A stretch of 5,549 nt of DNA from positions 1 to 5,549 of the forward strand of contig JAISNS010000102.1 in the NCBI GenBank assembly GCA_031276105.1. The letters are read 5' to 3'. This document shows, in pieces, positions 272 through 4,798 of the stretch (its first letter is position 1; each line of letters starts with the position of its first letter). Below the pieces are notes generated by a model, which had not been told where the DNA came from, searched no databases, and saw only the letters and a list, made by a program, of their open reading frames with translations. A program made the translations under genes and the position numbers. Origin of the DNA: Dysgonamonadaceae bacterium (GTDB lineage Bacteria > Bacteroidota > Bacteroidia > Bacteroidales > Azobacteroidaceae).

Positions 272-306
272 AAAAAAAACCTTTCTCCGTTAATCAGAGA
301 AAGGTT
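272..306 (-). terminator. attenuator terminator in the ilvD leader
   Basis: On the minus strand AACCTTTCTC (306-297) pairs perfectly with GAGAAAGGTT (287-278) across a 9-nt loop. An unbroken run of T follows through position 272. This is an intrinsic terminator lying only 15 nt before the ilvD start codon, so it must work inside the transcript as a regulated stop, not at the end of a gene. Its 5' arm (306-297) is also exactly complementary to 343-334, which gives the competing antiterminator. Confidence 0.9.
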
Positions 307-343
307 AATTTTTGAATATCATCGACATGCCTCAACCTTTCTC
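278..343 (-). promoter_or_regulatory. antiterminator/terminator switch of the ilvD attenuator
   Basis: Three copies of one sequence are arranged as in classical ribosome-controlled attenuators. Segment 2 is GAGAAAGGTT at 343-334, segment 3 is AACCTTTCTC at 306-297, and segment 4 is GAGAAAGGTT at 287-278. Segments 2 and 4 are identical, so segment 3 can pair with either over 10 perfect base pairs. The 2:3 pair (antiterminator) excludes the 3:4 terminator. Segment 2 covers the last three codons and stop of the leader ORF, so a ribosome finishing the leader peptide would hide it and allow termination. A further segment 1, ACCTTCT at 369-363, can pair with AGAAAGGT at 342-335 with one bulged base. 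It lies over Leu codons of the leader, giving the 1:2 protector hairpin expected when the leader is not translated. Confidence 0.85.
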
Positions 344-400
344 CTCTCTGTGCAAGACGAGTAGAAGGTCTACGAGTATCACATGTAAATTTCTATTCAT
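332..400 (-). CDS. ilv leader peptide (attenuator peptide, 22 codons)
   Basis: A short ORF starts about 19 nt after the predicted transcription start and stops with TGA at 334-332. Its middle reads VILVDLLLVL (residues 7-16), so nine of ten consecutive codons are Val, Ile or Leu, and ten of all 22 residues are branched-chain. The last codons, GAG AAA GGT TGA, are themselves the antiterminator segment. This layout is the signature of a regulatory peptide whose translation senses charged tRNA for Leu, Val and Ile. The peptide itself probably has no function. No Shine-Dalgarno sequence precedes the ATG, but the upstream stretch is A/T-rich, as is usual in Bacteroidetes. It is too short for standard gene callers. 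Confidence 0.87.
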   Translation of the reverse strand: MNRNLHVILVDLLLVLHREEKG

Positions 401-425
401 TATATATATAAATTTATTTCGGGTG

Positions 426-456
426 CAAAGGTAAAAGATTTTTTCTTTTCAACAAA
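426..456 (-). promoter_or_regulatory. Bacteroidetes-type promoter of ilv leader and ilvD
   Basis: On the minus strand TTTG (456-453), a 19-nt spacer and TACCTTTG (433-426) match the Bacteroidetes primary sigma consensus (TTTG, 19-21 nt, TAnnTTTG) at every fixed base. Transcription should begin near position 419, so the leader RNA would be about 160 nt and contains the leader ORF and attenuator. Confidence 0.85.
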
Positions 457-2901: not shown

Positions 2902-2977
2902 CCATGTCTCCGGATTCTTCTTCTTATGTCTTTCAGAATCTGTTATAGCATTTATAAAAATTACAATATACTCCTAA

Positions 2978-3264
2978 TTATAATGGTTCTATAACGTTTC
3001 AGGTGGGTATCTTTATCCAAACGGATACGTATTCACCGCAAGTAATTTTTCTTTGCCCGTCAGGGCATACATATCAATAGAAAAAGAACCGGAGAGCGGA
3101 AATTACGCCGTCAGGCGTTACCTATCAATAGAAAATATGAAACCTCTACGAGGTTTATGGGAGGTGGATAATACCTTTTCTATTGATATCTATGCCCTGA
3201 CGGGCAACGGTTGACTGCAATTTTTCATCCATTACCCACCCGAAACGTTATAGAGCCATTATAA
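2978..3264. mobile_element. 287-bp MITE-like element with 32-bp terminal inverted repeats
   Basis: The ends 2978-3009 and 3233-3264 are inverted copies differing at 2 of 32 positions; each begins TTATAATGG and includes CTATAACGTTTC. The element is flanked by TAA on both sides (2975-2977 and 3265-3267), consistent with a 3-bp target duplication. It has no convincing ORF, so it would need a transposase supplied elsewhere. Inside are a second long inverted pair (3053-3084 against 3176-3207, near-perfect) and two further hairpins, so the single strand can fold almost end to end. It sits immediately upstream of the permease AGGAG (2974-2970, minus) and therefore separates that gene from whatever promoter it once had. 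The transposase family that moves it is not recognised. Confidence 0.8.
3054..3206. repeat. repeated hairpin module plus TATCAATAGAAAA motif inside the MITE
   Basis: Four short palindromes lie inside the element: TGCCC-GTCA-GGGCA (3054-3067), ACGCC-GTCA-GGCGT (3105-3118), AAACCTC-TAC-GAGGTTT (3140-3156) and TGCCC-TGAC-GGGCA (3193-3206). The 13-mer TATCAATAGAAAA follows the first two (3072-3084 and 3123-3135) and occurs inverted at 3176-3188 before the last. The first and second hairpins share the loop GTCA, and the base changes in the stems (GCCC/GGGC against CGCC/GGCG) are compensated on both sides. The stems thus keep pairing while their sequence changes, which suggests that the folded form matters. 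Confidence 0.75.
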
Positions 3265-3391
3265 TAAACAATTCAGAACAAATATCTACTATTTTTTTAA
3301 CCATGTTTAACTTGTTTAGTATCTAACTCCTCAAATCCTTGTAAAAAAAGCAGAATAATTAAGCATTGAAAGAATGAGGTTTCTTGTCGTA

Positions 3392-3442
3392 CACCTTGCA
3401 CCCTGCACCTTTCGTCATGTGTTTACTCGTTAACTCGTCAAC
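3392..3442. repeat. two short simple-repeat patches (heptamer and octamer)
   Basis: Positions 3392-3412 hold three heptamers (CACCTTG, CACCCTG, CACCTTT). Just after, 3419-3442 hold three octamers (GTGTTTAC, TCGTTAAC, TCGTCAAC) of the same type as the array at 1630-1701. The surrounding stretch 3268-3495 shows no gene, promoter or terminator that I can support. Confidence 0.65.
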
Positions 3443-3495
3443 TTTTTTCCAGCAATTCCGGGAAAAAAAAGGTTAAAAAATAAATACTTTCGTAA

Positions 3496-4029
3496 ATTCA
3501 ATTAGTAAATGCAACTCAAGTAAGAAAAAGTTTTTACTTTGTAGTTGTTATGAAAAATAAAAAACAATTAACTCGGGAGTAAAGATACGAAATAGAAGTA
3601 TTACTCCGGGCAGAAAAAAAACAAAAAGAGATAGCCGAACTTGTTGGAAAAGACAAATCCGTTATCAGTAGGGAACTTAAGCGTAACAGTCACAAGCGGG
3701 GTTATTCCGCTCGTTTGGCTCAGGAATATGTCGACGAACAAAAGGAACGTTACCGTTTCAAGCGCAAGTTTACGGAAAGTATCTGAAAGAAAGTGATCAA
3801 AAGAACTGACCGAAGAACAGTGGTCGCCGGAGCAAATCGTCGGCAAAGCCCAGCGGGAAGGCGTGCGTCTCATAAGACAATATATCCCTAAAAAAGAATC
3901 ATTTACAAAATACAATGATAATGATATAAAAAATTTCCAGTATACAATCAATCGAAGACCAAGAAAATTACTTAACGTTGAATCTCCTAAAGATACGTTT
4001 TTTAGAAAAGTTGCATTTGATACTTGAAT
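3496..4029 (+). mobile_element. internally deleted IS30-family insertion sequence
   Basis: The remnant transposase reading frame is bounded by inverted ends. ATTCAATTAGTAAATGCAAC starts at 3496 (left end 3496-3516) and its inverted counterpart is at 4009-4029, matching at 18 of 21 positions, with the right end overlapping the end of the transposase gene. The element is 534 bp, about half of a normal IS30-family copy (about 1.0-1.2 kb). No target duplication is evident next to the ends (TAA on the left against CTG on the right). With both ends kept and the middle lost, it could only have moved with help from an intact relative. Confidence 0.75.
3550..4027 (+). pseudogene. IS30-family transposase, broken (nonsense, frameshift, core deletion)
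   Basis: Starting at ATG 3550, the frame reads MKNKKQLTRE, stop (TAA 3580-3582), RYEIEVLL, then QKEIAELVGKDKSVISREL and KRNSHKRGYSARLAQEY. This is the N-terminal helix-turn-helix of IS30 transposases. The TAA replaces an expected Gln codon (EQRY in relatives). TGA at 3784-3786 probably replaces a Trp codon. A +1 shift at about 3802 moves the frame to ELTEEQWSPEQIVGKAQREG (3803-3862). At about 3866-3871 the sequence jumps directly to LIRQYIPKK, the extreme C-terminal part of the family, and continues through INRRPRKLLN and FFRKVAFDT to TGA 4025-4027. The DDE catalytic core between these points is missing altogether, so the protein cannot be active. About 158 codons remain of the usual 310-390. 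Confidence 0.9.
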
Positions 4030-4407: not shown

Positions 4408-4587
4408 TCAATGTTCAAACCATTTTTCGTAACGTTCCTTCATTTCCAAATAGGAAAGAAGTTTTCCCTCATTCATTTGTATCACCCCATTTTCAATAGA
4501 AGTCATTTCCGCTTCGGATAAGATATTATACCAATCTCTTCTGCGTACCGTACTCCTCTTCATGATAAACTTTTCTTTCTTTTTCAT
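4408..4587 (-). CDS. small protein resembling the toxin-binding half of an antitoxin
   Basis: A predicted 59-residue cytoplasmic protein. The N-terminus is basic (MKKKEKFIMKRSTVRRRDW). The rest follows the pattern W..LSE.E..SIE.G..Q...G.......M..RYEKW (residues 19-57), which resembles the C-terminal helical part of small Bacteroidetes antitoxins paired with RelE/ParE-type toxins. That resemblance is from memory and not proven. The usual N-terminal DNA-binding part is absent and no toxin gene follows before the terminator. It starts 28 nt after the ribbon-helix-helix gene and is probably co-transcribed with it, so the DNA-binding function could come from that partner. ATG 4587 is preferred over an in-frame TTG at 4596; ATG 4563 (51 residues) is also possible. 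Function unknown. Confidence 0.65.
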   Translation of the reverse strand: MKKKEKFIMKRSTVRRRDWYNILSEAEMTSIENGVIQMNEGKLLSYLEMKERYEKWFEH

Positions 4588-4615
4588 AATAATCAAACTT
4601 TATCAATTAAACTTC

Positions 4616-4798
4616 TTATTGTTTTCTTTTGGGTATGCGGTCACATTTTTGTAATGCCTGATTTAATAAATACAATATTTGCCCATTGACGCTTCGAAAT
4701 TCATCGCAAGCCCATTTTTCAATAGCACTCATCATATCATTATCAATACGTAAGACAAAACTCTTGTTTCTACTTTCTTTCTCTACTTCTTTTGCCAC
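4616..4798 (-). CDS. Arc-type ribbon-helix-helix DNA-binding protein
   Basis: A 60-residue protein with the layout of a small RHH transcription repressor. A basic N-terminal tail (1-12) is followed by a beta-strand SFVLRID (13-19) that would insert into the DNA major groove as a dimer. Helix A is at about 20-33 (DMMSAIEKWACDEF), the turn RSVNGQ at 35-40, helix B at about 38-51 (NGQILYLLNQALQ), and the tail is basic (PKRKQ). The sequence is close to the widespread MAK..K.F.LRID..EKWA.DEFRSVNGQ family annotated as Arc-family DNA-binding proteins. The start is GTG at 4798, because the frame closes at TAA 4816-4814 and contains no upstream ATG. It is the first gene of a two-gene unit with 4408-4587, behind a strong promoter (4957-4987). 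Palindromes in its long leader suggest that it represses its own transcription. Confidence 0.85.
   Translation of the reverse strand: MAKEVEKESRNKSFVLRIDNDMMSAIEKWACDEFRSVNGQILYLLNQALQKCDRIPKRKQ

Follow-up and report, generated by a model that had tools for sequence, protein, structure and literature searches.

A candidate ribosome-mediated attenuator in the ilvD leader of a Bacteroidales genome and its relatives

Classical attenuation, in which a ribosome translating a short leader peptide governs transcription of the genes behind it, is best known from Proteobacteria. In the ilvL and leuL leaders of enteric bacteria, a Leu/Val/Ile-rich leader peptide is combined with alternative 1:2, 2:3 and 3:4 helices and with a terminator followed by a U run. 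The locus considered here raises the question of whether a Bacteroidales ilvD gene is controlled in the same manner. The window (that is, the whole stretch of 5,549 nucleotides that was analyzed) is a complete contig (C254) of a 2.58-Mb genome which is 86% complete, and a first-pass annotation had proposed that such an attenuator precedes the truncated ilvD gene at its end. From sequence and comparison, we consider it very probable that the ilvD leader is a ribosome-mediated transcription attenuator for a branched-chain amino acid operon, an answer that draws on its parts, their conservation, the covariation of the 2:3 and 3:4 helices, the codon bias of the leaders and a geometry that fits with an assumed ribosome footprint.

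Parts of the ilvD leader

The promoter, the 22-codon ORF and the 3:4 terminator with its T run, all anticipated by the first-pass annotation, can be read in the window at the positions collected in Table 1. The ORF devotes ten of its 22 codons to Leu, Val or Ile. The 10-mer GAGAAAGGTT is present twice, making segments 2 and 4 identical as had been claimed, and its complement AACCTTTCTC (segment 3) is able to pair with either copy. It is likewise seen that segment 2 coincides with the last leader codons and runs into the TGA stop. Regarding the promoter, the five other loci of the genus that carry the attenuator likewise have a TAnnTTTG box, which we take to be the Bacteroides -7 motif, 162-221 nt from ilvD on its 5' side. 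The leader RNA as a whole has a predicted folding energy of -45.7 kcal/mol (z -5.7), equaled by none of 200 shuffles.

Table 1. Features of the candidate attenuator, in window positions
Feature	Position	Strand	Basis
Promoter box TACCTTTG, TAnnTTTG type	433-426	minus	read from sequence
Leader ORF, 22 codons, MNRNLHVILVDLLLVLHREEKG	400-332 (stop TGA 334-332)	minus	sequence; recurrence in relatives
Leu/Val/Ile codon block V I L V D L L L V L, segment 1 within it	353..382	minus	sequence
Segment 2 GAGAAAGGTT, overlapping the final leader codons and stop	343-334	minus	sequence
Segment 3 AACCTTTCTC, common to antiterminator (2:3) and terminator (3:4)	306-297	minus	sequence, covariation
Segment 4 GAGAAAGGTT	287-278	minus	T run after it ends at 272
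Intrinsic terminator hairpin, 12 bp, loop 5	306-278	minus	consensus scan; dG -16.1 kcal/mol; 3:4 helix covaries
ilvD (dihydroxy-acid dehydratase), first 85 codons, contig ends inside	257-3	minus	NCBIfam and Pfam

Elsewhere in the window, a GH130 mannoside phosphorylase-like gene (590-1564) adjoins an AmpG-like MFS transporter gene (1666-2901), both on the minus strand. Nested inverted repeats occupy 2977-3265 (outer arms of 33 nt, 94% complementary; inner arms of 32 nt, 97%), and this stretch resembles a small non-coding mobile element. An 8-base unit (GTTTACTC/GTTTACTT) forms arrays at 1585-1704 and 3414-3452, and 3' of the leuA terminator in this genome (L190) there is a similar run, AGTAAACGAGTAAACAAGTAAAC. 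A match to the HTH_38 helix-turn-helix family (3601-3780) falls inside an apparent interrupted transposase, and a predicted small Arc-like DNA-binding protein (4616-4798, minus) has beside it a small ORF (4408-4596) with no family match.

Recurrence and covariation across Bacteroidales

Upstream regions of Bacteroidales-type ilvD were gathered from whole genomes (57) and named records (80); these 137 regions gave 133 non-redundant ones once four loci with identical last 120 nt had been merged, and distant IlvD-like genes (L138-L151) fell outside the set by an E 1e-15 cut. An attenuator was scored where an ORF of 10-40 codons, with at least seven Leu/Val/Ile within some 10 residues, was suitably spaced from a terminator with an energy of -8 kcal/mol or lower. 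Both were found together in 66 of the 133 regions, vs five of 532 dinucleotide shuffles and none of 133 reverse complements. The terminator alone was present in 80/133 real, 81/532 shuffled and 20/133 reversed sequences, and the ORF alone in 73/133, 37/532 and 9/133, respectively. The 67 regions that failed this strict test include likely cases missed by its thresholds, L060, L069, L070, L071, L073, L081 and L102 being attenuator-like by eye and nonetheless counted as failures. Among the carriers are Bacteroides acidifaciens, B. heparinolyticus, B. graminisolvens, Parabacteroides faecis and Dysgonomonas mossii, with leaders such as MNLHTSINLAVLHIIRVVVVTLGA (B. heparinolyticus) and MMNNVLHIILVVVLLVISR (P. 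faecis). The comparison with relatives on which the first-pass annotation had staked its reading thus came out in its favor, both the branched-chain-rich ORF and the alternative pairing being kept in many Bacteroidales families.

The 3:4 helix was a selection criterion for the 66 loci, whereas the 2:3 pairing was not. In 57 of the 66 loci, at most five of 100 mononucleotide shuffles of the region gave a 2:3 duplex as good as the real one, and in the other nine more than five did so (75 in the worst case, L033). On a plain MAFFT alignment of the 66 sequences, the nine pairs of the 2:3 helix are intact in 93.1% of 580 cells, a share that falls to 46-63% when the helix is slid by 1-3 columns. Doubly changed cells number 23, vs 3.8 in shuffles and 2-14 in slid versions, a count inflated, like all those of covariation given here, by relatedness among the sequences. 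Seven of the nine pairs show a double change, which is little above some slid versions (2-6 of nine), so that the strength of the 2:3 evidence lies in the paired share and the doubly changed cells. For the 3:4 helix, which had been selected for, 95.3% of 726 cells are formed, with double changes in all 11 pairs and in 53 cells, vs 6-12 when slid. Moreover, segments 2, 3 and 4 vary in step at several columns, one of which changes from A-T-A to T-A-T in four loci, and all three segments of the distant locus L044 deviate from the consensus at three core positions. The claim of a 2:3 antiterminator opposed to a 3:4 terminator is supported by stems that both covary across relatives. As in the trpL, hisL, ilvL and leuL attenuators, the antiterminator would exclude the terminator through their common segment 3, and an intrinsic terminator lies between the leader ORF and the first gene.

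Another hallmark of these attenuators, a leader ORF rich in codons for the amino acids that the pathway makes, can be read from the sequences: Leu, Val and Ile account for 50.4% of codons in the 66 leaders vs 21.4% in ilvD, high content having been a selection criterion. The choice among synonymous codons is also shifted, with CTA taking 21.4% of Leu codons in the leaders vs 2.9% in ilvD of the same loci, GTC 49.8% vs 17.0% of Val codons and ATT 74.2% vs 38.5% of Ile codons, while TTG, GTA, GTT and ATC are rarer in leaders than in ilvD; part of this shift may be due to pairing constraints. A model of attenuation ranks CUA as the Leu codon best suited to control in E. coli, and the Salmonella leu leader uses this same codon that is enriched in the Bacteroidales leaders (PMC1183508).

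Ribosome position, timing and alternative explanations

The geometry was computed with an assumed footprint, its size being that of an E. coli-like ribosome. In 56 of the 66 loci, no more than 12 nt separate the start of the segment 2 core from the stop codon; most often the core begins at one base into this codon, making the TGA part of TGAGAAAGG. With this footprint, a ribosome having the stop codon in its A site would cover at least six of the eight nucleotides of segment 2 in 54 of the 66 loci, and stalls at 737 of the 757 Leu/Val/Ile codons would leave segment 2 free, as would A-site stalls at nine of the ten such codons in the window's leader. For the assumed footprint, control codons and stop are thus placed as in known attenuators, stalling freeing segment 2 and finishing masking it, and the stall and release proposed for this leader would be geometrically sound. 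Folding was also computed for the window RNA that lies 3' of a ribosome stalled with each of codons 5 to 15 in its A site. The 2:3 helix was predicted as long as segment 4 was absent; with segment 4 present, the minimum-energy fold was 3:4 at each stall position tried. As 3:4 is lower in energy once segment 4 exists, antitermination must rest on 2:3 forming first, which would make the mechanism dependent on timing.

A shortage of charged Leu-, Val- or Ile-tRNA would, in the mechanism we propose, stall the ribosome in the codon block and thereby free segment 2, which would form the 2:3 antiterminator before segment 4 is made and allow ilvD to be transcribed. Under good supply, segment 2 would be covered by the ribosome on its arrival at the stop codon, segments 3 and 4 would pair as the terminator and a short RNA of ~150 nt would be released, with its end near 272. 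If the leader were left untranslated, segment 2 would be taken up by the leader itself (1:2), again with formation of the terminator. For the protector hairpin postulated for this last state the signs are divided: in the predicted fold of the window the leader does sequester segment 2, but the outer 1:2 stem is not above chance there. Across relatives, 64 of 66 predicted folds have half or more of segment 2 paired with the leader, a share that comes without a control; of the 66 leaders folded without segments 3 and 4, only 23 go past z -2, and the outer protector stem is better than chance at the 5% level in 23 loci, the window not among them. A His codon conserved immediately 5' of the branched-chain block (LH, IH) was considered as a feature of the peptide and reread as part of TTACAT, which would pair with ATGTAA 3' of segment 2; since no more than 23 of the 66 loci, the window again not included, have this stem above chance at the 5% level, it stays a lead.

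Several of these observations also bear on other explanations. The hairpin could be an ordinary terminator, for instance that of the upstream GH130 gene, which lies on the same strand and reads towards ilvD, with the small ORF arising by chance. The consensus scan of the whole window leaves room for this, having returned five terminator-like sites vs 5.4 in shuffles, so that the scan by itself is no proof of a terminator. Yet the promoter box and the leader are located between GH130 and the hairpin, which lies ~280 nt beyond the GH130 stop; ORF and terminator occur together in half of the real regions vs about one shuffle in a hundred; and the 2:3 pairing, for which a plain terminator has no need, is conserved across loci. 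We regard this explanation as very improbable. Still less probable is a metabolite riboswitch or T-box controlling ilvD through the same terminator. Riboswitches and T-boxes do serve ilv and leu genes elsewhere, and they would share with this locus a structured leader having both terminator and antiterminator. However, Rfam gave no family at its gathering score in the window, where seven weak matches up to E 1 were taken as chance and the sole one over the leader was rnk_leader (E 0.46, 25 of 50 bits), nor did it give any in 20 related loci; the conservation sits instead in codon content, stop position and the 2/3/4 repeat.

A leader acting mainly through translation-dependent RNA stability or exposure of the ilvD start, and not through termination, is also improbable, if less so than either of the foregoing. 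It would agree with the short distance from terminator end to ilvD start (just 10-90 nt in the 66 passing loci), and what speaks against it is the T run that follows the hairpin in these loci, itself a selection criterion. Sequence and comparison together thus favor a ribosome-mediated attenuator, as the first-pass annotation had suggested.

Distribution, a possible regulon and known systems

Conservation in relatives, which had been expected, holds across many Bacteroidales families but not within most of the window's own genus, where six of 31 ilvD loci keep the full element and 25 show no full attenuator. L009 (identical to L047) has only a terminator, behind a promoter box, and L002 has a box 3' of the terminator on a contig too short to show a leader; among the remaining 23 loci, 17 carry a TAnnTTTG box within 80 nt of the gene. 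At L009 (= L047) and L046, box and terminator remain before ilvD and the leader ORF is gone, a state that is possibly a stage in the decay of an attenuator. Azobacteroides, a termite-gut lineage to which the window's genome is very likely related, is found on both sides: Candidatus Azobacteroides pseudotrichonymphae ProJPt-1 (G021) and G003, presumably A. pseudotrichonymphae CfPt1-2, are without the attenuator, whereas a Candidatus Azobacteroides sp. (G028) keeps it, and L048, a record with the latter label that shares its upstream DNA with L010, passes the strict test. G017 has an intact leuA leader but has lost the one before ilvD. When attenuator presence by the strict test is mapped on a tree of 46 IlvD rows (17 chosen ones besides 29 of the 31 genus loci, the window's short IlvD being absent), seven changes are needed, at least four of them forced by well-supported branches, and these changes may be gains or losses. 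These relatives may offer a natural series of switch losses, A. pseudotrichonymphae among them. In three records labelled Desulfobulbaceae (L106, L118, L119), the first 85 residues encoded by ilvD are 81-84% identical to those of the window, and there is no attenuator by the strict test; these records represent either transfer or misbinned contigs.

A covariance model built from the leader alignment was searched against 27 genomes, with 150 candidates scored per genome, so that further sites may exist. Among these best 150 candidates, at least 38 matches reached E 0.001 or less (19 ilvD, 17 leuA, two elsewhere) and at least 49 reached E 0.01 or less (21 ilvD, 17 leuA, one ilvA, 10 elsewhere); many of the ilvD matches, including the window's leader, belong to the training set, and the leuA leaders do not. 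In the window's genome, the best 150 of 1257 candidates contained two matches up to E 0.1, namely ilvD and leuA, the latter with leader MKSTTIYGLLLSIIILLCRTS and terminator AAACCTTTCTCGCTTCGGTTGGGAAAGGTTTTTTTT. Six regions that were neither ilvD nor leuA were inspected, and one proved to be ilvA. An Ile-rich ORF, MSIQIYITISIISLITS, and a terminator lie 5' of this gene in G055 (L246, G055:C21:34000-36300, minus), the arrangement that an isoleucine-specific attenuator would be expected to have.

A scan run without shuffle control found ORF and terminator at 17 of 24 leuA loci (15 convincing by eye) and at 12 of 22 hisG loci (11 convincing: L161, L164-L169, L173, L175, L177 and L181); L172, L193 and L200 were judged unconvincing, the partial hisG L183 was left out, and some gene starts were misplaced, for example in L163, L171, L172, L176, L179 and L182. 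His-rich leaders with up to six His codons in a row, such as MKRTVLHHHHHHYNGQ, precede hisG together with terminators in several Bacteroidales families, and no His-rich leader was found in the 338 nt of upstream sequence at hand for hisG of the window's genome. With leaders before ilvD, leuA, ilvA and hisG, this kind of attenuator looks general in Bacteroidales.

The genes behind the ilvD leader differ between relatives. G025 has ilvD, ilvB, ilvN, an acyl-ACP thioesterase gene (L156:4328-5065, minus) and ilvC, in this order. In G055 the order is ilvD, ilvB, ilvN, ilvC, leuA, leuC (ilvN, leuA and leuC called by family scan, ilvB and ilvC by resemblance), and two leader-terminator units stand in tandem 5' of ilvD (L158:1-351, G055:C112), the first ORF having only TTG or GTG as possible starts. 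This is the sole convincing tandem case in the 133 regions, the distant unit of a second candidate, L024, looking like chance. Salmonella mgtCBR is a known case of tandem attenuators (PMC3641672).

It is conceivable, though we hold the idea with somewhat more doubt than confidence, that an order-wide Bacteroidales attenuation regulon, unmatched in Rfam, exists. In it, the leaders of ilvD and leuA (joined in several families by His leaders of hisG and in one genome by an Ile leader of ilvA) would be of one design with the leader stop built into a segment of the RNA switch, one lineage would carry tandem switches before an ilv-leu operon, and lineages of the termite-gut genus would repeatedly have shed the ilvD switch and kept the promoter. 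If these switches work, ribosome and RNA polymerase are closely timed in Bacteroidota, at least over such leaders. An attenuator conserved across a major gut order would be a ready reporter of transcription-translation timing in this phylum, and it points to leader peptides before core metabolic operons that gene callers would be apt to miss.

Attenuation has been suggested before in these bacteria. The 2004 abstract of Vitreschak et al. is said to include Bacteroidetes/Chlorobi among the groups with candidate attenuators, and the Bacteroid-trp RNA has been linked to trp attenuation. The latter is a predicted cis-regulatory RNA of Bacteroidetes (Rfam RF01692; PMC2864571); RF01692 gave no match up to E 1 in the window and none at gathering score in the 20 related loci. 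Clues to leader peptide attenuation of amino acid operons are mentioned for Flavobacterium psychrophilum (PMC9723704), and sORFs in long 5' UTRs of B. thetaiotaomicron are called 'reminiscent of leader peptides' (PMC7366714); the passages concerned suggest attenuators in Bacteroidota but give neither ilvD nor alternative helices. Two further papers state that in 2010, as far as the authors knew, Proteobacteria and Actinobacteria were the only groups with demonstrated leader peptide systems, apart from ermC (PMC2965389), and that in 2013 Ile/Val attenuators were absent from Rfam (PMC3766115). Among the matches listed by our literature search, none described a Bacteroidales ilvD attenuator by its title or the start of its abstract; subscription journals were mostly outside the scope of the search, so that an earlier description may exist.

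Set beside known systems, the ilvD leader is very likely, judging by sequence and comparison, to be an attenuator of the trpL/ilvL/leuL kind in a little-studied group. It is like ilvL of ilvGMEDA and leuL of enteric bacteria in its peptide, its alternative 2:3 and 3:4 helices, its terminator and the pathway genes that it precedes. It differs from them in belonging to another phylum, the likeness being one of design and not of compared sequences; in having ilvD as first gene, which in the relative G025 heads an ilvD-ilvB-ilvN-thioesterase-ilvC operon; and in a leader stop codon that often overlaps segment 2. The ilvB-II uORF attenuator of Corynebacterium, with its uORF 5' of the ilv operon (PMC10272879), comes from yet another phylum and precedes another first gene.
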